DNA of 64,000 nucleotides from Diphasiastrum complanatum (Eukaryota > Streptophyta > Lycopodiopsida > Lycopodiales > Lycopodiaceae): the NCBI GenBank assembly GCA_029204225.1, contig CM055104.1, positions 38,370,527 through 38,434,526 of the forward strand, read 5' to 3'. This document shows, piece after piece, positions 9,379 to 33,921 of this stretch. Numbering within the stretch: the first letter of the stretch is position 1; each line of letters begins with the position of its first letter. The translations under genes were made by a program, and so were the position numbers. The notes beneath the pieces are model-generated. The model saw only the letters and a program-made list of their open reading frames with translations. It ran no database searches and had not been told where the DNA came from.

Positions 9379-9995
9379 TCAGTATGGCTTCTTCCCTTCT
9401 ACGCTTGAAAATAGCACATAAACACTTATCAAGTTCTTTGTAAGCTTAGGAACAAAAAGAACATTGGAAAGTGATAGAACTTTAGAAGAAGCAAGTTTCA
9501 ATGGAATGTTGCCAATTCCTTCAATAGGACATTCATGATCATTTGCAATGTAAATAGATCTTTTAAGTCCTTTACAAGGTACAATAGAGTCAAAAGACTC
9601 CTTTGAACAACACATATGTGAAGAGGCTCCACTATCGATGTACCAAGCTCCATCTTTCTTGAAGGGTGTTGAAGAAAAGCTTGACACCATGAGTGATCCA
9701 TCTCCATCACTTGCAATAAAGTCTTCTTCTTCTCATTAGAGAGATTTGCTTGATTGAGTTGATTTTTCTTTTTGAAGCAATTAGAGGCATAGTGCCCCTT
9801 CTTGCCACAAAAGAAACACTTGACTTTCTTCTTCTTGGTCTTTGAAGTAGAAGGATGAGATGAGTCATCCTCTTCACCATCTTTGTCTATGCCCTTGGCT
9901 TTGTCTTTGTTAAAAACTTGAGAAAACTGGTTTGGATTGAGGAACATAGACAAGTTTAAATTGAGGAACATAGACAAGTTTGGATTGAGGAACAT
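9379..9995 (-). pseudogene. Copia A gag C-terminus and protease, frameshifted
   Basis: The upstream frame contains a CCHC zinc knuckle (CFFCGKKGHYASNC) preceded by a lysine-rich STSKTKKKKVK stretch. The protease start follows in another frame and contains YIDSGASSHM, the copia aspartic-protease active site. The coding sequence ends where foreign repeat begins. The N-terminus is replaced by a small tandem repeat, translated as repeated MFLNPNLS. The same domains occur in copia D with high similarity. It is non-functional because of the frameshift, the missing gag N-terminus and the missing pol. Confidence 0.85.
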
Positions 9996-10024
9996 ATGGA
10001 TTGAGGAACATAGACAAGTTTGGA
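9936..10024. repeat. Short tandem repeat at a gag deletion junction
   Basis: About four copies, some partial, of a 24-bp unit containing GAGGAACATAGACAAGTTT lie where the gag N-terminus should be. Confidence 0.75.
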
Positions 10025-10553
10025 TTCTACTTTTGGCACGTGTTAGATGCTACAAAAGAAAACACTAATGATTCAAAAAAGGCTCAAAAGTGTTCAATAA
10101 CATCAAATTGTCTTGATCTTCAGTTTCTTGTGTTGGATACTCAAAAGAATGGATTAAGAATCAAGCAAGATTGAATCAAATCAAAAGGTGGTCACTTGGA
10201 TTTTGGACCTCTCCCTACCCTCTTTAAGAGCTTATAACTCTTAAAAGACACATCAGATTGATTTGGGATGCAATGGAAAATACACTTCATAAGCTTCCCA
10301 TCAAGCTATAACATCAATATCTTTGGACCAAATAGCAAGGAATTAAAGAGGTATGAAAATCTTTGATTTTCACACGTGCGGAATTCCAGAATTCCGTACA
10401 ATGTCAATTCTGATCTAAAAATTCAGTTTCTGTCCTCTTTGATCCAAACACTTTTCAAGAAAGGTAAAGAAAAGTGATTAACAACTTTTTTGCTTGAATT
10501 GGACTCACAAATTCTTGAACAATCAGAGATTAAAGCATGCAAAGCTTAATTTG

Positions 10554-10565
10554 GCTCTGATACCA
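10554..10565 (-). other. Primer-binding site of copia A
   Basis: On the minus strand the sequence is TGGTATCAGAGC, the usual copia match to initiator-Met tRNA, directly next to the LTR end TGTCA. Confidence 0.9.
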
Positions 10566-11337
10566 TGACAAAATTTCTAGCAAATTCACACGTGTGGGGA
10601 ATGATCCTCAAGTGTGAATGATCTTATTAAGCTTTATGATTAGCACACAAACTGATTCTAGATTGAATACCAAGATCTAGTACAGAATTTAATGGCTTAA
10701 TCACAATCTAGCATGCTATGAACAAGAGAGAAAAAGTAAAGAAATTTAATGTATTAGCATAAGCCTCAACTCGAGTTAGAGAGAGAAAGAGAGAGCAATA
10801 TTCAAGCGAATGATAGTGTAGATCCAAAATGGCATGGAATAGCTTCAAAGCTTGGTTCTTCATCAAAGATTATGAGAATGTCTACACATATTTATGGAGT
10901 TTGAGGTAGCTCGAGGTAGAACCACATCCATCCAACTTCCATTCACATCTATAAGTGAAAACTAGACTATTAGTGACATTTGTCACTTCTCATGCATGCA
11001 TTTCTACCTACTTTTTCCAAGTGTCATTTTTCCAACTAGAACTGTACAAATCATCATGCATGTGTCCATTTCACTTTTGTGTATGCCTTGCATGTCATTA
11101 TGGATCACTTACAACCATTGCATGTGATATGCCATGAGTTTCTACAAGCATATTATTGACATTTCTAAGTCTACAATCTATATGCAAGTTGTATACTACC
11201 AATTAGACTTGAAGAACCCATGTAGCTCGAGTTCCTCCTAGGCCAAATTTGGCATTTACATTATGAAACAACAAACTCACATAGAAAATTTTGTGACAAG
11301 CCTAAAGTCAAGATAGATGAATTTTTATTTCTCAACA
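10566..11337 (-). repeat. 5' LTR of copia A
   Basis: It is 772 bp, beginning TGTTGAG and ending TGTCA on the minus strand. The end is fixed by the adjacent primer-binding site and the start by homology to the copia D LTR fragment, which follows a polypurine tract. The partner LTR is lost. Confidence 0.8.
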
Positions 11338-12455
11338 ACATGCAGACTCAGGAGTATACCTTGTGGGCTGTGTGCGCACTTGGCTTGATCTTCTGGGAGG
11401 AATTGACTGATGAACCATTCTTGGGACTTGTTGCTGGGTAGCAGCAACGTCTTCATCTGATTCACTATCAAATAGTGGGTCGACAATGGACACGCCTGAG
11501 CCCGAAGCTCTAATTGTCGTGTCAATGGTAGGTGATGAAGGTTCTCCTGGAATAATATACTTGTCTTTGATGTCGACAAACTGATCCTCGATAAAGACTG
11601 TATCTCGGTTGTACAAGACTTGCTGGGTATCAGGATCATACAACTTGTATGTGTTATCAAATGAAGTATATCCAATCAGTATGGTCTTGAGACCTTGGGA
11701 GTCAAATTTCTTTCTCGTGTCTTTCGGGATCTGCGTGTAGGCAATGCATTCGGACACTCTTAGGTTCTTCACAAAAGGCTTAGAGCCTATCCACACCTCA
11801 GGGGTGTTTTGCTTGAGAGGGACTTGGTCGAACATCTGTTCTATATGTAAGCTACAGTGGAGACAACTTCGGCCCAGATTCTCTTGGACAGCGATGCATG
11901 CACTAGCATACATTTGGCTGATTCAACTAGGGTACGGTTGTTCCTCTTGGTAAGGAGGGATGAATTGCTACTAAATGCTTTGGCTCTAGCAGTACTCCTT
12001 AAATTCAGTAGAGATGTACTCTCCACTGTTGTCTGACCTTAAGGCCTTGATCGTCCTTCCAGTCTCCTTTTTTGCATGCTCCTTCAAGATTCCGAAGCAA
12101 TTGAAAGCTTCTGATTTCTTCTTGATAAAGTACACCATAGTCCTTCTGGAGAATTCATCAATAAAAGTTATAAAATACTTTGCATCCTTCAGCGAAGGAT
12201 TTTTCATCAGGCCACAAATGTCTAAATGCACAATGTCTAACAATCCTCTAGTAGTATGTTGATGGCTTGATCTAAATGGTTTCATAGTCTGTTTACCAAC
12301 TTGACAGTCTTGACAGATATCACGAGGATAGTCTAGATCAAGAACAATAGAATGTCTAGACATTTGTTGTACAACAACATGATTCAAGTGACCAACTCTA
12401 TAATATATGATTCCTTTCTTTAGATCAGTAGCCTTTCTCTTATCTTGTAGAAACT
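11338..12455 (-). pseudogene. Copia B integrase fragment
   Basis: The minus strand encodes a GAG-pre-integrase piece (RVGHLN, then CQDCQVGK), the integrase core with HLDICG and FITFIDEFSRR, and LRSDNSGEYIS. After a frame change come the NRTLVE segment and the post-integrase region (PEVWIGSKPFVKNLRVSE). At least one frameshift near 12390 and stops near 12000 break it. Reverse transcriptase should follow but copia A's LTR starts instead at 11337. Its upstream boundary, near 12455, is not defined. Confidence 0.85.
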
Positions 12456-13127
12456 ATTAATTTTTTTTGATTTGGAGCTCTAATGCCCAAGTGATGGCCA
12501 TTTTAGTGAATTCATTCTAATTTTCGTTAGCTATATTTTCTTTTTAGCTTGTCTGTCTCTACTTTCGTCATTGCTTCAACAGATGTCTTGTTGACATGAC
12601 ATGTAGATGAGAGGCCCTCATGCCTAAAGCCTCATTACGTTAATTCAATCTTTTTCTCTTAGAAGGTCGTTGGCCCTATGAAGCTCTTCGCTGGCTTGTG
12701 AAATATGAGTAGGGCGGCCAAGCTACTGTTTACTAGGTTGGAAGGGGTGCGTTGATTCAGAGGTGAGGGAGTTTCTTAACATATGGCTGAGCAACACATG
12801 ATGGGAGATGGGTCACTGCTTATAGCAAGATCACTTCTCAACTTTTTCTATGCACATATTCTTACGGTCACTGGTGCCTCATTTCTCCAAGTTCTGTCTC
12901 TAATAGGTGCATTTTCTAGTAACTAGCATCTTGGTTCGGATGTTTGCCTTCAAAGATGGAATGTAGAGCTTATGATTTTAAGGTGGGCCAGTAGAAAGGC
13001 GGGTACACTCTAGGACCCTTCTTGATGCAATGGCAAACACTTACTGAAACATCATCTACCACTCACTTTCAAGGCATACACCTCACAACTTTGTATTGAG
13101 GTCTTCCTAACGTGCACCATTGATGAC
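12456..13127. other. Unassigned sequence between copia B and C
   Basis: No domain or terminal structure is seen. It ends with the target-site copy TAATC at 13128-13132. Confidence 0.4.
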
Positions 13128-13132
13128 TAATC

Positions 13133-14586
<1,454 letters not shown>

Positions 14587-14605: not shown

Positions 14606-17600
14606 CTACGAATCTTGACTCAAGTTGAGATTTAACAATTCTACTAGAGTAGAATGTTTATCCCTTGACAATGGTTTTGTCAGAATGTCAGCCAATATAT
14701 TGTTTGTGTGACAGTAACTTAGTGCAACGTCTTCATTCTGAACCTTCTCTCTGAGAAAATGAAGTTGAACCTCTATATGTTTGGTCCTTGTGTGAGTTCG
14801 GCAGTTCAACGATAGAGCTATACAACTCTAATTGTCGCATTGGAGTATAGTTGGACCAAACTGTGAGAATCTTAGATCCTGTAGTAGTCTTCTAAGCCAT
14901 AAAATCTCCTTCATTGTTGACATAGCTGCGACATATTTAGATTCTATGGAGGACAGAGAAATGCATTTCTGCTTTCCGATATTCCATGAGATGGGTCCTC
15001 CTGCAAGGAAACAAATGTAGCCTGATGTGGATTTTTTGGTATCCACGTCTCCTGCCCAATCTGGGTCTGAATAAGTATTCAAAGAGAGTGCAGCTTCTGT
15101 ATTTCGGTTATAACTCAAGGCATAGTGCTTTGAGGCTTGAATGTACTTCAGAACTCTTTGTAGAGCTTTCCAGTGTTGTAGGCCTAAATTGGACATGAAT
15201 TGTGACAGTGTGCTTACAGCATATGCTAGATCGAGTCATGTGCAAATCATAGAGTACATGAGAGAACCTACAATAGACTGATAAGGGTACTTGCACATTT
15301 CTTGTTGATCTGCCTTTGTTCTAGGGCACATGTCTTTGGACAACTTGCATCCTGGATCCATAGGAGTGTCTATGGGCTTGCAATCCTCCATGCCGTATCT
15401 TTGAAGTACATTAAGTAAGTAGGATTGTTGGCTTATGGTGATCCTTCTGCTCACGCGATCTCCATGAATCTCCATTCCAAGTAGGTAATGGACTGGACCT
15501 AAATCAGTCATCTCAAACTCTGATGAGAGTAAAAACTTGGTCTCTTGCAACAACTGATTTGAATTATTGATGATTAGGGAATCATCAATGTATAGTGCTA
15601 TTATAACATAGCTTGGCCCCTTTGGTTCTAGATACACATTTGAATCTACGGTGCAGGAGGTAAAGTCGTGCTGCAACAAGAACCGATTTATTCTATCATA
15701 CCAGGCCCTTGGAGCTTGCCGCAGACCATATAATTTCTTATGTAATTTGCATAGTAGATGCTCCTTGCCTTGAGGGATGTAACCTTCTGGTTGATAGATG
15801 TAGACATCTTCTTGTATGTATCCGTGTAGGAATGTCGTTTGGACGTCCATCTGGTGAATATCCAGATCTTCTGCCACAAATATAGCCAATAAAGTACCAA
15901 TAGACTAATGTTTTACTACTAGACTAAAGGTCTCAGTGTAGTCTATCCCATATACTTGTTCAAAGCCTTTAACCACCAGTCTAGCTATCCATTTGGATAT
16001 AGATCCATTTGGCTTAAGCTTCAACTTAAAGATCCACTTAGAGTCAATTGGCTTTACACCTGTAGGAGGAATGACAAGACTCCAGGTCTTGTTCTTCATT
16101 AGAGATTGATACTCAACATCCATGGCAGCTTTCCATTTGTCTGCATCAGGCATTGATAGTGCTTCTGCTACGGTGGCAGGTTCATCATGACTGACGAAAG
16201 CCTGAGGGATGAAACGGTCAGGCTGCTGGCGTTGTCTCACAGATCTTCGAACTGTAGGTGCTTGATCAGACAATTCTCCTTGGTGTTTGTAACCGTAGTA
16301 GGCTTCAAACGGTTTCTTAGAATCCACTGCTTTAGTGCTAGAGTAATTTTGCAGATAGCAAGCCATAGAGATAGCTTCTGCCCAAAAGGTTTAAGGCAAA
16401 TGCGAATTTACTGTCATGGATCGTGCAACTTCCAACAGTGTGCGGTTCTTCCGCTCTGCTACTCCGTTCTGTTGTGGAGTGTAGCTCGTAGTAAACTGGT
16501 GGTGCACGCCACATGAAGATAGGTAGTCCTTCATCTCATTTGACAAGAACTCTCCCCTTGAATCAGACCATAGGGCCTTGATTTTCTAACCAGTTTGATT
16601 CTCAGCGTATTGCTTGAAGTCTTTGAAGCAACGAAATGCTTCTGACTTGTTCTTTATGAACATAACTCTGACAAATCGGGAGTAATCATCAATGAATGTG
16701 ATAAAATATAGAGCTTGACCTAATGAAGGTATGCTCATAGGACCACACAAGTCACTGTGTATCAGTGACAAGATGGACTTCGCCCTTTTGGCTTGTCCTC
16801 TAGGAAATCTCATTCTAGGTGGTTTCCCTAGTAGACAATTTTCACAGATAGTCTGATTAGTTGTGGTGATAGCAATTATATTCGTGTCATTGACCATTTT
16901 ATTGTGATGCATATACAAGATTGAACGTATGTTTAAATGACCTAATCTTTGATGCCATAAATTAGCATCTGAACAACTCACAGAAAGTGCAACATCGTGA
17001 CTTAGTATGTACAAATTTTCTTCTTTGTAAGCAGAGAGGATTTCCTTTGAGTTCTCATCTAAAATAGTACATCGGTTGGCAGTGAACAAAGCTCTATAGC
17101 CCTGATCTGTGATCTTGCTAATAGATAAAAGGTTCTTTGTTAATTTGGGTACATAAAGTACTCCATTAAGCTACCTAATGATGCCATCAGAGAACTGCAG
17201 TTGAATAGACCCTTGGCCTTCAACTTGGTGTGAACTGGAGTCACCAAAAAAAATGTACTTTGATTTTGTAGTTGTGAGTGTAGAGAAGAGGTCCTTGCAT
17301 GGCGTCATGTGTTGAGAAGCACCTGAATCGAGATACCTTTGATGGGCATCTCTACTGGATTGATCTTGTACCATCAACGTCTTCTCTTCATCTTGAGATC
17401 CTCTGACTGTGTCAGAGTTGCCTTCTTGGTGTTGCTGCATCTTCTTCTCTGCTTCATTGTGCTTGAGGATGCGACAGTCCTTGATGTCGTGGTTGGTTCT
17501 TTTGCAATATCTGCAAAATAATTTGGTCTTGGACGATGAGTGACTATGTTGCTGCAATTGTGGTTGTAATGCTGATGGCTGTTTTGCCTTTGTCTTTTTA

Positions 17601-18247
17601 TCCTTGAAGCCTTTCTTCTTCTTGGATTGCTGCTTGTTTGAATAGAGTGCCATGGATTTGGTACTCATAGATGTGGACAAGCTTTTCCTCCTAATTTCTT
17701 CATGCAACAAACTTGCTGTCAATTTTTGGAGAGACAGCTCAAGGGTATTGCTTAGAAGCAACACTAAATTATTGTAGGAGGGTGGAAGACTGGCAAGAAG
17801 AGACATGGTAGAGTCTTCTTCTGAGATAGAGGAACCTATTGCAGCCAGTTGGTTCAACAATTGTTTGAACTCGTTCAGATGGTCACTGACTGAGGTGCCT
17901 TCACTCATTTTGAGTGTCAGTACCTTCTTCCTCAAGAAGAAGCGAGTCGAGACATCTGAGGTCTCGTAGATGCTAGTGAGTGTATCCCATGCTTCTTTGG
18001 AAGTAGTGCAGTTGGATACATGGGCAATTTGAGTGTCTTTAAGGTTTAGAGATACAATGGCAAGAGCCTTGCCATCCTTGGCTTCCTAAGCTGGAAGCTG
18101 TTTCGGTTTTGCCGGTCTGGCTATAGAACCGTTGACGTATCCCCATAACTCCTTTTCAATCAGGATCATCCTCATTTTGAACTTCGACATGTGGAAGTCA
18201 TCTCTGTTGAATTTATTGATCAAGCAGATCTCTGAGGTGCCTTCCAT
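14606..18247 (-). pseudogene. Copia C gag-pol polyprotein with seven in-frame stops
   Basis: From ATG at 18247 to the final stop at 14606 is 3,642 nt, exactly 1,214 codons, with no frameshift. Visible in order are gag (MEGTSEICLINKFN start), the CCHC knuckle CRYCKRTNHDIKDC near 17520, the protease motif YLDSGASQHM near 17320, the pre-integrase LWHQRLGHLN and CENCLLGK, integrase HSDLCGP, FSDDYSR-like and NGVAERKNRT, reverse transcriptase with IHQMDVQTTFLHG and the YIDD catalytic box near 15590, and RNase H with DPDWAGD and KSTSGY. Stops lie at 18086, 17171, 16586, 16391, 15905, 15236 and 14828. Each fits a single C-to-T or G-to-A change from a common codon. It encodes the retrotransposition machinery but cannot make it without readthrough. 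Confidence 0.93.
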
Positions 18248-18326: not shown

Positions 18327-18338
18327 GCTTTGATACCA
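18327..18338 (-). other. Primer-binding site of copia C
   Basis: The minus strand reads TGGTATCAAAGC, four bases inside the LTR end, with one change from the usual initiator-Met match. Confidence 0.85.
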
Positions 18339-18342
18339 CTTC

Positions 18343-18815
18343 TGTTGGTGTATGATGGTGGTCTGCGTGGTCTATGACTGATTGCGATCGCAGCGGAGCC
18401 GTGACGGAAGCAGAACATGAGAGAGACGATTACGATGTAAACGATGTCTCTACCAATAGTACAAAAAAACAATTATGAACACAGTAGTAACTGCGTATTT
18501 TAGGAATGGGATTGATTAGAGAACGAAATCAAAAGCTTGTTGTCCTTTTGGGTTATCAGAGTAGGAGTTTGAGATTGCCGTAACAGTAGGATTGCGAAGC
18601 ATTAGGCATCTTGGATAGCCATGCAATCCTTTGTCTCTGATAATCGTGTTTGTGTGCAAGAGAGTGAGAGAGACAATTGCATTCAATCAAGAACGTAATA
18701 ATTGAACAATAGCAAATCTGTATAAAAGAGAGAATCAGAACACAATACAATAGCTCTGATAAGCGTGTATTCCTACTTACAGATTTTGAAACAATGGCTA
18801 CAGTTCTCGCTCTCT

Positions 18816-18852
<37 letters not shown>

Positions 18853-19711
18853 AAATCACTAACTCTAAAACGCTAGCTACTTAAGACCTTTTGGTCATTT
18901 GATCGCTTTGCTACACATTGTTCAATTCACTACTCTGATTTTCTCTCTAACTCCTTCTCTTCGTTCAGATACATATATATAGCTGTCAGAGTCTTTTGAT
19001 TTATTGTAATTATAGTTTACAAGATGATTAACAGCCGTTTAAACAAGATCCGTAGATCCGTTATTGGAGCGTTGTGAAGGAGGAGAAGTACAGAGCAACG
19101 GATCCTCCGTATGCGTCGTAGTGGAAGGATGTAGGCCATGATGGCCGTAGTCTGTCCGCAGTCATTTGAACAACCGCTGGTCGTTCATTCAGCTGTTGTA
19201 TGTTCGTTCAGTAGGTGATCGTTTGAATCCTTCGTTGGTACCCATGAGTGATAACTTACGTAGCTGATCGATGAGATAGGTCAACTTCGTTGGCTGATAT
19301 CGTAGGAACTCGCAAACCGTTGTCGTCAGTCGACTTCGTTGATAACCGTAAGTAGGTTGCTTATGTTTTCAGACGGTTGAGGAGCCATCGTAGGAGATCG
19401 TAAGAAGGTCACTTACGGTGGTCGACATGATTTTAAGTTTCGTTGCCATTGAAGATTCCGCAAGTGCTCATAGATAGTAACCTACGGGTTTTAACGACTC
19501 TCTACGGTTTGCAGTTCGTCAAGTTGAAGTCGTGTTTCTTCGTTAATGTCATTTTGATGGTGCTCTTCGGTCAGACCGTAATCTGGCGATGGCTTTGCAA
19601 TTCTGCCTGATTCGACTTTGCGTGTATTTTTGCAGACTGATTCAGAGAGAGGGAATTCTTGAGAGTAAAAGGAGGGCAAAGGGATGAGTAGGAGAAGATT
19701 AAACTCCAATA
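18343..19711 (-). repeat. 5' LTR of copia C
   Basis: It is 1,369 bp, about 85 bp shorter than its partner, mostly because of the microsatellite at 18808-18846 (CT then TG). Elsewhere it shares long blocks with the 3' LTR, with scattered, mainly transition differences. Confidence 0.93.
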
Positions 19712-27780: not shown

Positions 27781-28731
27781 TCATGCTAAATCCGCAAAAA
27801 GAAAAGAATGAATATCGGATAGTAGTTTGCATGACCATAAAAATGTATATTCCTCGAATTGTTCCAGTGGCGGTAGCTCCACAATGACTTTGATTTTGGA
27901 ATAATCCATAGCAATGCCATGTCTTGATATCACATGTCCAAGAACAACTCCATGAGTAACCCAAATTTGACACTTTTTTGGACATAAGGAGATTTGGTAT
28001 TTGAGACAACGTTCAAATAATTTTTCCAAATGATCCAACTGGTCTGTATCAGCACTATGAACTCCGAGATCATCCAAGTAAATTTCAAAGAATTTTTGCG
28101 AGTAGTCTTTGAAGGTGGACTGCATTACCTTTTGAAATGAACTAGGTGCATTACAAACTCCATACGACGTAACTTTATATGCATAAGATCCCCATTTTGT
28201 TGCAAAAGTTGTTTTATGGCGATTCGCAGGTGCGATCTTAACTTGATTGTAACCACTAAATCCATCCAAAATACTGTAGGCTTCCGCTCCAGCAAGGCGG
28301 TCCAATATGCTTTCAGTAAAGGGTAACAGAAAGTGAGAGTTTCATGTCACTTTGTTCAAAGCTTTGAGATTCACACAAATTCTCATCTTCTCACTCTTCT
28401 TAGGAATGACAACAATTGGCGAAACCCATTCAATATGCTCGATCTCGTAAATGAAATCAGCTTCAAGTAAACTCTGTAGCTCTTTCTTAATAAGATCAAT
28501 AACATTTGGATTACAGCGGTAGAATCTTGTGACTTTTAAAAATGTATCAGGCATCAAGAAAATTGTATATTCAATCACAGATGTTGGAATCCCTTTTAAA
28601 TCCTTGTATGTCCAAGCAGAACAAGATTGATACTTAACCAACAACTTCCTTAGCGCTTGAAACTGCTCTGGGGTAAGTTGCGTTTCAACTTGCATAATCT
28701 TTTCTGGTTCTCCTGGTTTAGCAAGATTCAT
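27781..28731 (-). pseudogene. Ty3/gypsy reverse transcriptase fragment
   Basis: One minus-strand frame runs through the block with a single internal TGA at 28342. Before the stop are the pre-RT and fingers (WVSPIVVIPKKSEKMRICVN). After it come AYSILDGFSGYNQVKIA, TSYGVCNAPSSFQ and the catalytic box YLDD. The end (FGYV-like thumb) is lost and replaced by unrelated residues after VIVELPPLEQF. The stop fits an Arg CGA changed to TGA. No LTR, protease or integrase of this element was found nearby. Confidence 0.9.
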
Positions 28732-28936
28732 AGGATGTGTCCTAGCTGGTCCATCATAAATATCTTTCGTTTATGGTACTTGTTCTTCTGGTTTACGATG
28801 AGCTTTTGGTAACATAATGACAAATTCATCAGAGTATAGCGTTTGAAATGTTTGACATATCATGCTATACTTTATCTGATTGTTCCTCCTCAAAAGGATT
28901 GACCTTGGCTCTTTGCATGGCCATCATCATGTGCCA

Positions 28937-28978: not shown

Positions 28979-29128
28979 GTTGTATATGACCAACTAGACT
29001 CAAGAAACCATGTAGCTCGAGTTTCTTCTAGGCCAAATTTGGCATTTACAATATGAAACATTACATACACATAGAAAAAACTTTGCTAAAGCCTAAAGTC
29101 AAGATAGACGATTTTTCATTTTTCAACA
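28978..29128 (-). repeat. Truncated 3' LTR of copia D
   Basis: It starts TGTTGAAAAATG after the purine run AGGAGGAG (29129-29136 on the minus strand). It matches the first 150 bp of the copia A LTR, including GCCAAATTTGGCCTAG, and stops at the junction with the plus-strand RNase H tail. Confidence 0.8.
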
Positions 29129-29146
29129 CTCCTCCTAAAAATTAAT

Positions 29147-29762
29147 CTATGTTGACTTGAACATGGATATTGGAATTACTCCAAGATTGGCTCTATGCTT
29201 GATGAAGGAATTTTTGCTCAAAGGTTTGGTGAGCAAATCTGCAATACAAGATGATGTGTCGATGTGCTCCAAGTAGATTTCCCCTCCAATGAGCTTCTCT
29301 CTCACGAAGTGATGTGCAACTTCGATGTGTTTGGTCCTTGCCTGAAATATTGGATTGTTGGCAAAGGCTTTTGCTGAAATATTGTCACACATGATCAATG
29401 GTAGATCATCTTCCTTGATAGTCTTTAGCTCCAAAAGCAACCTCTTGATCCAAAGCACTTCTTTTGTTGTAGTAGTAAGTGCCTTATATTCAGCTTTACA
29501 AGATGAGAGTGATATGGTATCTTGCTTTTTAGAAAGCCAAGATATTAAATTTCCTCCAAGGTATATGACATACACACTTGTAGATTTTCGATCAACATTA
29601 TCACTAGCAAAATCCAAGTCAGAATAGCCAACAATAGAAAGATCTTCACTTTTGTATAACAAACCATAATCATAAGTTGAAAATATACCTAAGTATTTTT
29701 TTGGCCATTTTGCAATGATGAATAGTAGGATTTTGCATAGCTTGGCTCAACTTATGAACAAC
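29147..29762 (-). pseudogene. Copia D RNase H and reverse transcriptase C-terminus
   Basis: The open part contains SDLDFASD, RKSTSVYVIYLGGNLISW, SSCKAEYKAL and TKHIEVAHHFVREK, the classic copia RNase H signature ending ADLLTKPLS. Upstream, near 29670-29750 in shifted frames, LSQAMQNPTIHH and KMAKKILRYI give the end of the reverse-transcriptase region. rRNA begins immediately beyond. Confidence 0.9.
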
Positions 29763-29963
29763 TTGGGCGCCGTAACCCGGCTTTCGGATCATCCCGCATC
29801 GCCAGTTCTGCTTAGCAAAAATGGCCCACTTGGAGCTCCCATTCCGAGCCGGGGTTCAACGGAGCAACTCCGGCAGCTTACCTATTTAAAGTTTGAGAAT
29901 AGGTCGAGGGCGTTTTACCCCCGATGCCTCTAATCATTCGCTTTACCTGATAAAACTCGACGA

Positions 29964-30019
<56 letters not shown>

Positions 30020-30540
30020 AGTCTTTCGTCCCCATACCCAAGTCTGACGAACGATTTGCACGTCATTATCACTACGAGCCTCCACCAGAGTTTCCTATGG
30101 CTTCGCCCTGCTCAGGCATAGTTCACCATCTTTCGGGTCCCAGTAGGTATGCTCACACTCGAACCTTTCACAGAAGATCACGGTCGGTCGATGGTGCACC
30201 CCCACGAAGAGGGATCCCACCTGTCAGTTTCCTTGCGCCTCAATGGGTTTGCCACCCATCGGCTCGCACACATGCTAGACTCCTTGGTCCGTGTTTCAAA
30301 ACGGGTCGGATGGAAGGCCCGAAATCGCCAGCGTCCCGAGTGCGCAGGTGCCCGAAGGCCCGCCACAAGTGGCGCGCGCTTGCAGTCCCCGACAGGCGCC
30401 GCGGCATCGGTGGGGTCATCGCAACCCCGCTTTTGTCCCGCCAAGCCTGCCCACGCTGACCAGCACCCCGCATTGAGCGGCGGACCAGCTCTTGCCGTTC
30501 CGCATCCAACCGGGGCGCACCCGCAGCCTAGCACATTCAC
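29763..30540 (-). rRNA. Nuclear 26S rRNA fragment (5' third) inside copia D
   Basis: The minus strand reads the plant 25S/26S rRNA domain around GAAACACGGACCAAGGAGTC, CGAACCATCTAGTAGCTGG, GTTTCCCTCAGGATAGCTGG and CCAAGTGGGCCATTTTTG, ending at GCCGGGTTACGGCGCCCAA. It is only about 780 bp, so it is a fragment and not a functional gene. At the highly conserved GGGTATAGGGGCG position this copy reads GGGTATGGGGACG, two changes that suggest decay or copying error. GC content is much higher than the flanks. It lies in the same sense as copia D. Open frames through it are meaningless. Confidence 0.95.
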
Positions 30541-31725
30541 ATAGAGATCGATTTTTTCTTTTGGCAACCCCATTTTGAGATGGGGAATAAGCACAAGAAA
30601 GTTCTCTCTTAATCCCTTCAACCTCACAATAATCATAGAACTTGTTGGAGATGTATTGACCTCCTCCATCACATCTCAAAGCTTTAACTTTTAAAGAAAA
30701 TTGTTTCTCAACATAAGCTTTGAAAACTAGGAAGTGTTCAAACACCATAGCTTTTGAAGAAAGAAGGTACAACCAAGTATATCTTGTAAAATCATCAATG
30801 AAGGTAACAAAACAAGTTGCACCACCAATACTTTTTGAGGAAGAAAAGTGAACATCCGAGTGAATTAATTCCAAATGATGAGTAGTCTTAATAGAAGACT
30901 TTTAATATGGCTTTCTGTGTGATTTTGCAATAGCACAAGCCTCACATGGCTTGATATCTTTGGAAAGTGATCTTGGTAGGCCAATAGCCTTATCATTCTT
31001 GACCATAGAAAGCATAGATTTAAAGTTGAGATGCCCCAAACTCCTATGCCATAACTCCTCCTTAGACATAAAAGCAATTTCACAAAAGTTTGCATTCTCA
31101 TAAGAATTTAACTTGAAGATGCCACCATATATAGATCCATTAGCTAGGATCTCATCACCTTTCTTAATAAAGCAAGTATTGGCATTGAATTTCACATCAC
31201 AACCACAATCAAGCAACTTTCCAACACTTATCAAGCTCTTTGTAAGGTTAGGAACAAAAAGAACATTGGAAAGTAATAGAACTTTAGAAAAAGCAAGTTT
31301 TAATGGAATATTGCCAATTCCTTTAATAGAGCATTCATGAGCATTTGTTGTATAAACAGACCTTTTAAGTCCTTTATAAGGTACAATAGAGTCTAAAAAC
31401 TCCTTTGAACAACACATATGTGATGAGGCACCACTATCGATATCCCATGCTCCATCCTTCTTGAAGGATGTTGAAGAAAAGCTTGACACCATGAGGGAAC
31501 CTTCTCCTTCACTTGCAATAAAGTCTTCTTCTTTCTCATTAGAGAGATTTGCTTGTTTGAGTTTATTTTTCTTTTTGAAGCAATTAGAGGCATAGTGCTC
31601 CTTTTTTGCCACAAAAGAAACACTTGACTTTCTTCTTCTTGGTCTTGGAAGTAGAAGGATGAGTTGAGTCATCCTCATCTTTGTCTTTTTCCTTTGTTTT
31701 CTCTTTGATGAATTGCTTCAACTTG
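30541..31725 (-). pseudogene. Copia D gag-protease-integrase
   Basis: The zinc knuckle starts CFFCGKK in one frame and finishes HYASNC in another, so a one-base change near 31605 shifts the frame. The protease motif is DIDSGASSHM. The pre-integrase has ELWHRSLGHLN and CEACAIAKSHRKPY, followed by a stop near 30902. The integrase core has ELIHSDVHF, FVTFIDDFTRYTWLY, LRCDGGGQYIS and NGVAKRKNRSLCE, and is cut there by rRNA. The sequence closely matches copia A in the shared part. Confidence 0.9.
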
Positions 31726-31729
31726 TTGT

Positions 31730-33431
31730 CTGTCTGCTTCTTAGCCCAATTTGTATACTCAACAAATTTCTTAAAAGCTTCTAATTTTTCCACAAATATC
31801 TGAATGTACAATTTCCAGTACCTTGGTTGCTTTATAAACAACTTTACTAAATGGTGTTCGAATCATTTTGCCTTTAAGACAAGATTCGTAGGTAGTTCAA
31901 ATATCTCGACTCTTGATTTCGACTCCTTCAATTCTTTGACTCTTGTTGGCTTGGTACAAGGCTTCCATGTTCATGTGACATAGCCTCTTGTGTAGTGAAA
32001 ATTGCCCCAAGCAAGACGATTTGTTTGCTCGACTCAAGTTTGAATGCTCAAGTGATACAAATTACCATCTTTGTTACCTTTAGTAACTAGGTTATCAGAA
32101 TATTCATCGAACAATTTACAAGAGTTCCTTGTGACGGTTACTGACATTCCTGTGTCGACTATCCTCCAGTTTTTTGTCACCCTGATTCGTGTCTAACCAT
32201 AGTACACCAGTTCCATCAACTTCATATTTAGAACCATCTCCAAGTATAATGAATCTCAAAGAATTCATCTTCTTATAGTCAGATAAATTTTTTTCCTAGA
32301 AAACAAAATGTGAGGTGGCTCCCGAATAAGGTACTACTTCTCGAATTTTCGAATTCAATGAACAACATAGATCAGCACAAACATATGCTGCTGAGTTTCT
32401 TGTCGTCTTCTCTTCTACTACTCTGGAGCATTCTGCTTTGTCTTCGACAAAATTTGAATCTGAAGGTTCGTTTCGATTCTGCTCCTTCTTGTTCCTGGGA
32501 TTTTGATAACAATCTACTACTGCATGATCCCGTTTATGACAATGAATACAATCAATCTTTGGATTCAACCAACACTTGTCTTTTGTATGACCTGATCTTT
32601 TGCATCTGTTGCAAATCTTCCTATCACCAGAATCTTTCTGTTGTTTTTCGGATTGTCGACGATCATTTGTCTTGCATTCGTCTAAATGATTTCCATTCTT
32701 TTTAGACGACTCCCTCTTAGACTTAAACTTCTTCAAAGGTTGATTCTTTTGAGTAAATAGAGCTTTTTTCGAATCACCATTATCGTCATATTGTTCACGA
32801 GCTTCTACTTCCTCTTTGACTCCATCTATCACCTTTTGAGTGTCATAGACGAATCTTTTGCCAGTAAAGTTCGAGTTGTGTGGAATGACCTGGGTAGGCT
32901 TGAAGAAAGTAGCTAAGATGTTTTTCCTTTGAGATTGCATTTTCAGTGCTAGAATTCTACAAAGAAATAAACATATCCTTTATCTTTCATACGAAAATGG
33001 TCATATCTTTGTTGTCCCATTGTAGGTAAGTCAGTTGGTCCTCCAAAAAAATGATTTGATTTCATAATCAAGTCTCATTCTTGGTTTGCAATTCTTCCCA
33101 TGATTCTTTTGCGTTCGAAATCGATGAAAGATCTAGCATTATGCTGTCATTCACTGAAGACGCAATAATTGCTATAGCTTTGTCATTTTTTTCCCTCCAT
33201 TCATGAAGTTCTTTGCCAGAATTAATTGGCTTCTCTTCTGTTCAATCTACCCATTGCCAAAGATCTTTGCCCTTCAGTATGAGTGAAGTCTTTAACTTCC
33301 AGACTAAATAATTCGAACCTTCTATATCCAAGATTATATTGATCTTAGACTGAATGCTGCTGATCGAAGACATCTTCTAATCGAATAAGCTCCAGATAGG
33401 GTTGTTGATGGATGTGTCAGTTTTGATACCA
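31730..33431 (-). mobile_element. Truncated copia element E (PBS, gag, protease, integrase start)
   Basis: From the primer-binding site at 33431-33420 (TGGTATCAAAAC) gag starts at ATG 33373 with SSISSIQSKINIILD and WKLKTSLILKGKDLW. After frame breaks come two zinc knuckles and a protease start. Beyond a decayed stretch, CESCLKGKMIRTPF and VHSDICG mark the pre-integrase and integrase, ending near 31730, where copia D gag begins. Stops and frameshifts are frequent. Confidence 0.8.
32296..32940 (-). pseudogene. Copia E gag with two zinc knuckles and protease start
   Basis: A 214-codon open frame rich in Lys, Asn and Asp holds CNRCKRSGHTKDKC and a second knuckle CIHCHKRDHAVVDC, both CX2CX4HX4C. 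Near its end VVPYSGATSHF aligns with the protease active site, but the catalytic Asp of D-S-G is Tyr. This would inactivate the protease. The frame stops just after. Confidence 0.88.
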
Positions 33432-33921
33432 CTATAGGAAAAATACTAGGAATTCTTCTTCAGATAACATGATACAAGTTCGAATAAATCAATTTCCAAG
33501 ATGAATTGAAGAGTCTTGATTCTTCCTTGCACCTTTGCACTTGATTTCTTCACTAAGCAATGCACAAAACTTGTTGTGTGCATTAACACTTAATGCCTTT
33601 GTGAATATATCTGCAACCATGTCCTGCGTTTAGGGAAGACTGGACTATATAATCTCATTAATACTGCAAGCTGTCAAGTTGGTAAACTTATTTTGTACAT
33701 GGATATGAGTGCTTCCCATAGATGCAGGATTCACAAAAGAGAGATTTCCTATCTAATGAAGAAGGAAAATACAATCCATCAACTAAATTATTACAACGCA
33801 TATAAGAAAATGATCTTGTATTCACGTGTCCAAATCGACTATGCCCATAGTCTCTCTTTTTGTATTCTCCTATCCTTATCTTAAGGGAAATCCTTTAGGG
33901 TCTTTACATTGGTATCAGAGC
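33432..33921. other. Two outward-facing LTR ends with primer-binding sites
   Basis: The left side (33420-33431) is the minus-strand primer-binding site of copia E. The right side has a plus-strand site TGGTATCAGAGC at 33910-33921, one base after an LTR-like end TTTACA. About 470 bp between must contain the 3' ends of two opposed LTRs; their junction cannot be located by eye. The sequence after the plus-strand site has an open stretch to 34065 without clear gag similarity. Confidence 0.5.

Follow-up and report, generated by a model that had tools for sequence, protein, structure and literature searches.

Within the 64,000-bp stretch of Diphasiastrum complanatum DNA analysed here (the window), a truncated Ty1/copia LTR retrotransposon carries 769 bp of nuclear 26S rRNA sequence at the place where its relatives carry ~1.45–1.47 kb that includes the reverse-transcriptase domain. 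The rRNA is fused to copia sequence on both sides and in the same sense, at junctions that can be placed to the base, and no second copy of the hybrid was found among the best-scoring candidates in the genome. In our assessment there is an even chance that template switching during reverse transcription made this chimera.

The rRNA sequence matches the Rfam model of the eukaryotic large-subunit (LSU) rRNA (RF02543) on the minus strand with E-values of 5.6e-140 and 1e-145, which excludes a chance match, and it is the only rRNA in the window that reaches the Rfam gathering score. The sequence-only reading that preceded this work had recognised 26S rRNA at 29763–30540; the identification is correct, and alignment moves the edges to those listed in Table 1. 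That reading had also held that the rRNA shares the sense of the element and stands in place of the reverse transcriptase (RT), and both points are borne out: the integrase core lies upstream of the RF02543 match and the RT end downstream of it, all on the minus strand, and the two flanks belong to one copia family whose relatives hold the RT there.

Table 1. Features of the chimeric element and of the sequences adjoining it (positions in the window)
Feature	Position	Strand	Basis
Nuclear 26S rRNA sequence, 769 bp, in copia sense	29761..30529	-	RF02543; edges from alignment
Integrase-side junction, 1 bp common to copia and rRNA	30529..30530	-	Alignment of copia loci and rDNA copies
RT-side junction, 0 bp common	29760..29761	-	Alignment of copia loci and rDNA copies
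Copia D 5′ part, with disrupted frames: gag end with a zinc knuckle (by eye), beta barrel of the protease region, GAG-pre-integrase and integrase core	30530..31712	-	Pfam; genome copies
Copia D 3′ part: reverse transcriptase end and RNase H, by eye	29150..29760	-	Same family in genome copies
Polypurine tract AGGAGGAG	29129..29136	-	Read from sequence
LTR start TGTTGAAA..., first 150 bp, then cut off	28979..29128	-	Sequence; comparison of loci
Piece E, from another copia-like element and in the same sense, spanning gag (zinc knuckles) to part of integrase; by eye	31713..33434	-	
Piece of a gypsy reverse transcriptase, downstream of where the LTR is cut	27784..28770	-	RVT_1 on 27784-28341; 28345-28770 by eye

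The host copy, here called copia D, runs on the minus strand from ~31712 to 28979, with all of its parts and the rRNA in the same sense. Pfam finds the Pol beta barrel (Pol_BBD), gag_pre-integrs and the integrase core (rve) in it, the last directly upstream of the rRNA; a Pfam search of the 3′ frame (RT end and RNase H) gave no match. Together with these domains, the position of integrase before RT, an order read with the aid of the relative L055 (RVT_2) as the window keeps the RT end only, identifies the element as a Ty1/copia LTR retrotransposon. Its downstream part resembles 25 loci in the genome (L013 and L015–L038, some of them duplicates) at 84–94%. A tblastn search of viral contigs gave no relatives, and the junction has no exact match there. 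The idea that the two halves came from different families was rejected, L013 (the same place as L061) having both in one copy at 95.0 and 93.4%.

The sequence-only reading had further described an order intact from gag to LTR. The copy is in fact truncated at both ends: homology to the family begins inside gag, at ~31712, and the LTR stops after 150 bp, beyond which all 13 loci examined (11 distinct) continue with sequence common to them, up to ~650 bp. No second occurrence of the LTR start was found within 24–37 kb, so that 150 bp of one LTR stand where a complete element would have two bounding LTRs, and the chimera, joined at both ends to other elements, lacks an LTR-bounded structure with a target-site duplication. 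Upstream it meets piece E, the gag frame of which gave no Pfam match; beyond the cut LTR, the minus strand carries a hAT C-terminus as well as the gypsy fragment. Elsewhere in the window, a second piece of the copia D family (9382–11337) has a protease region 89.8% identical to 31223–31707 and an LTR start 84.2% identical to 28979–29128, and is adjoined by the integrase and SH3 frames of another copia (11335–12453). Direct repeats at 13120–14584 and 18330–19709, 90–94% alike, flank minus-strand copia frames (14609–18085) and are probably, from their arrangement, the two LTRs of another copia element. Over the whole window (1–64000), 27 of 30 copia-, gypsy- or hAT-related frames lie on the minus strand, overlapping frames being counted separately.

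Both junctions were resolved by comparison with copia loci and rDNA-derived copies. At the integrase side, 30 of the 31 aligned copia loci read GAATGTGCTA (L031 is off by one base), with the continuation AAGCAA in 26 of the 31; the rDNA-derived copies have, for instance, GCGAATGG followed by AGGCTGCGGG, and the window has GAATGTGCTA followed by GGCTGCGGG. Thus GAATGTGCTA belongs to copia, and base 30529 alone is common to the two. The microhomology proposed earlier for this side had taken GAATGTGCTAG as rRNA; GAATGTGCTAG is copia, and the claim falls with it. At the RT side, the rDNA reads CCCAAGT then GCGC, copia reads GTTTTAG then TGTTCAT, and the window reads CCCAAGT then TGTTCAT; the window's base preceding this join is present in none of 30 copia loci, and there is thus no overlap. 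A search for microhomology at both joins yielded overlaps of just 1 bp and 0 bp. The motif GAATG occurs a few bases before the integrase-side join in both partners, out of register, and was given little weight. Because the window piece is internal to the 26S gene, spacer or mature ends cannot tell an RNA template from a DNA template.

The extent of the replaced stretch can be estimated from relatives. Both flanking sites are present in ten loci besides the window (L013 and L061 being one place), separated by 1445–1467 bp in four loci and by 1091–1291 bp in the other six, which we take to be deletions; in twenty more loci with ~1500 bp of room, no second flanking site was found. On these comparisons the full length of the replaced stretch was probably 1467 bp or slightly more. 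In L055 it encodes the greater part of RVT_2, together with the SH3-like domain of integrase.

We searched the 1.745-Gb assembly, in which the window lies on contig C13, with 200-bp queries across each join and scored the 40 best of 1091 and the 40 best of 1000 candidates, respectively. Among these, neither junction occurred anywhere besides its own locus. Another chimera with the same join should rank at the top of such candidates. The dispersed copies with shared junctions that the sequence-only reading had envisaged did not appear, and the comparison gives no sign that the hybrid was remobilised. We also counted private bases of the window copy, after setting aside the own loci, three duplicates and all columns with fewer than 8 copies or less than 75% agreement. 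Of the scored positions they account for 20 of 1162 in the integrase-side copia part (1.7%; 35 loci), 12 of 744 in the RT-side copia part (1.6%; 33 loci) and 7 of 703 in the rRNA (1.0%; 20 other fragments). These rates would fit a fusion made around the time of insertion, and the rRNA may have entered somewhat later than the copia inserted.

The rRNA query gave 42 matches (best 40 of 103 candidates) and a query of downstream 26S sequence gave 41 (best 40 of 51), from which we assembled a tally set of 54 rRNA-fragment loci other than the window. Duplicates (L007, L011, L064, L077, L085 and L091) were removed beforehand, equal or near-equal scores being assumed to mark duplicates at 2 of the 42 places for the rRNA query and 8 of the 41 for the downstream query; L093, whose flanks are those of L006, is probably a duplicate as well, and neither of the two has a copia match. 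An 18S query (40 matches, best 40 of 97 candidates) was kept out of the tally. With frames from the window and from genome copies, tblastn was used to find copia coding sequence within 400 bp of each rRNA edge, a limit chosen after some loci had been viewed. Such sequence was found at 13 of the 54 loci, in the rRNA sense at 11 (L003, L014, L041, L069 on both sides, L072, L078, L083, L092, L102, L108 and L112) and in the opposite sense at two (L010 and L111; one-sided binomial p = 0.011). Adding the window gives 12 of 14 (p = 0.0065), and counting the inverted second L041 piece, which lies near copia-like sequence, as opposite gives 11 of 14 (p = 0.029). In many of these loci 40–380 bp of unassigned sequence separates rRNA from copia; among joins within 20 bp, as judged from homology to copia DNA or protein, three are of the same sense (L041, L069 and L072) and one is opposite (L010). 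The least significant matches counted were those of L014 (E = 7e-5) and L092 (E = 9e-6). Outside the tally stand L071 (same sense; a gypsy-like protease frame by eye, with no Pfam match), L087 (a weak RVT_1 match, opposite), L080 (hAT, same sense) and, with copia more than 400 bp away, L086 and L090 (both same sense) and a copia SH3 piece ~800 bp off L078 on the other strand. The closest parallel to the window is L069, in which 323 nt of sense rRNA lie between gag and gag, with a short gag stretch missing by eye; in L072, 18S/ITS1 and 26S sequence is joined to a D-family RT at adjacent bases.

rDNA sequence has also been dispersed in this genome in forms that include spacers. Seven of the eight fragments examined that reach the 26S 5′ end continue into ITS2 (L002, L004, L041, L065, L066, L074 and L075), and L004 holds 18S, 5.8S and 26S with both spacers between them. 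Such fragments indicate that DNA or precursor RNA also served as template, and DNA-level capture of rDNA has evidently taken place in this genome. Several fragments have unusual arrangements. L073 (C5:9467447-9469708), the eighth of the fragments that reach the 26S 5′ end, contains three contiguous 26S parts, permuted and one of them inverted, and starts within 2 bases of the mature 5′ end. In L041 (positions 611–1731; C3:16778221-16781321), rDNA in inverted orientation abuts rDNA in direct orientation, head to head; the direct piece starts within 2 bases of the 5.8S/ITS2 border and runs into copia gag. In L080 (C23:25392193-25394305), a hAT DNA transposon, 113 bp of sense rRNA separate the DUF659 region from the C-terminal region. 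At about position 1001 of L083 (C19:41643127-41645229), rRNA directly follows, by eye, a purine run, AGATTAAGGGGGGG, which resembles a copia polypurine tract, the rRNA standing where an LTR would be expected. A sense rRNA piece adjoins, again by eye, a gypsy-like protease frame in L071 and L077 (C8, ~44.56 and 44.25 Mb), which are copies of one another in opposite orientation (99.8% alike across 2308 bp).

If template switching made the window chimera, reverse transcriptase would have switched at the end of the RT region from copia RNA to LSU rRNA, mature or precursor; after 769 nt it would have switched back to copia RNA where the integrase core ends, so that ~1.47 kb were skipped. The chimeric cDNA would then have entered the genome, and the truncation of both ends of the copy would have preceded or followed this entry. 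The RNA nature of the template, the assignment of both switches to a single event and the way in which the cDNA integrated are inferred. A single same-sense case favours template switching by a factor of two only, and the weight therefore comes from the wider, still small tally, to which the architecture of L069 and the private-base rates may be added. Against template switching stand the near absence of overlap at the joins, the lack of an LTR-to-LTR structure, the mosaic of joined pieces and the ratio of 3:1 within 20 bp, and against an RNA route in particular the run-through into ITS2, the 18S/ITS1 sequence of L072 and the sense piece in the hAT element L080. Thus the earlier proposal of template switching keeps the argument from shared sense, here and at 11 of 13 loci elsewhere, and loses the one from microhomology.

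The spacer-containing rDNA fragments scattered through the genome make DNA-level capture a serious rival. A double-strand break in a resident copia, loss of ~1.47 kb and the copying or capture of a 769-bp rDNA filler, oriented by chance, would explain the nearly blunt joins and the lost target sequence, both of which the window shares with filler DNA at repaired breaks in plants; the rearranged pieces of L041 and L073, the rRNA inside a hAT element and the mosaic surroundings of the window copy also fit. Such filler is expected to show no orientation preference, however, and repair predicts half of the pieces to be antisense, whereas 2 of 13 were found so, or 3 of 14 with the inverted L041 piece (11 of 13 or 11 of 14 in the same sense, and three of four within 20 bp). 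We judge repair to be somewhat less than an even bet. Ligation of rRNA and copia RNA pieces before ordinary reverse transcription would likewise yield same-sense joins without homology, and is named beside template switching for LINE-1/28S chimeras (PMC13174262); it needs two ligations, with the right copia pieces on both sides, and appears very improbable. Misassembly, which the sequence-only reading had raised, is less probable than any of these: the locus lies within a 57.6-Mb contig, no other match listed is more than 97% identical to its rRNA piece, and its 7 private rRNA bases are absent from all 20 other fragments compared.

Fusions of this general kind have precedents. Chimeras of 28S rRNA and LINE-1 are described at 18 loci, 83% of them in sense, with template switching or RNA ligation proposed (PMC13174262). 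They resemble the window chimera in that LSU rRNA is fused to a retroelement, mostly in sense, but LINE-1 is a non-LTR element with the rRNA at its 5′ end, whereas here the rRNA lies in the middle of pol of an LTR element, with copia on both sides. Switching between LTR-element RNA and host RNA, as template switching would have it here, is known from LTR-mediated retroposition and gene capture, e.g. maize Bs1; there, however, the captured RNAs are mRNAs, the products are LTR-bounded and microsimilarity is said to guide the switch, which is absent at the window joins (PMC5408686). Cassandra, too, pairs rRNA-related sequence with an LTR retroelement, but there a whole family has amplified, with 5S rRNA sequence in its LTRs (PMC10853983), whereas the window has LSU rRNA inside pol of one copy and no 5S rRNA in an LTR. 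A search of titles and abstract openings in part of the literature found no description of 26S rRNA inside copia pol.

The tally raises the wider possibility of repeated recombination in this genome between element RNA and rRNA, mature or precursor, during copia-type reverse transcription, leaving sense-biased chimeras that would be an LTR counterpart of the LINE-1/28S chimeras, with the window and L069 as internal double-switch products; we advance this tentatively, as slightly less probable than not. If the sense bias fails genome-wide, the window would be one more rDNA filler in a decayed element. The hybrid hints that such elements can splice rRNA into themselves during copying, and if the bias holds, the reverse transcriptases of LTR retrotransposons would meet and copy rRNA in living plants, and the rate and places of switching would be measurable from genome sequence.
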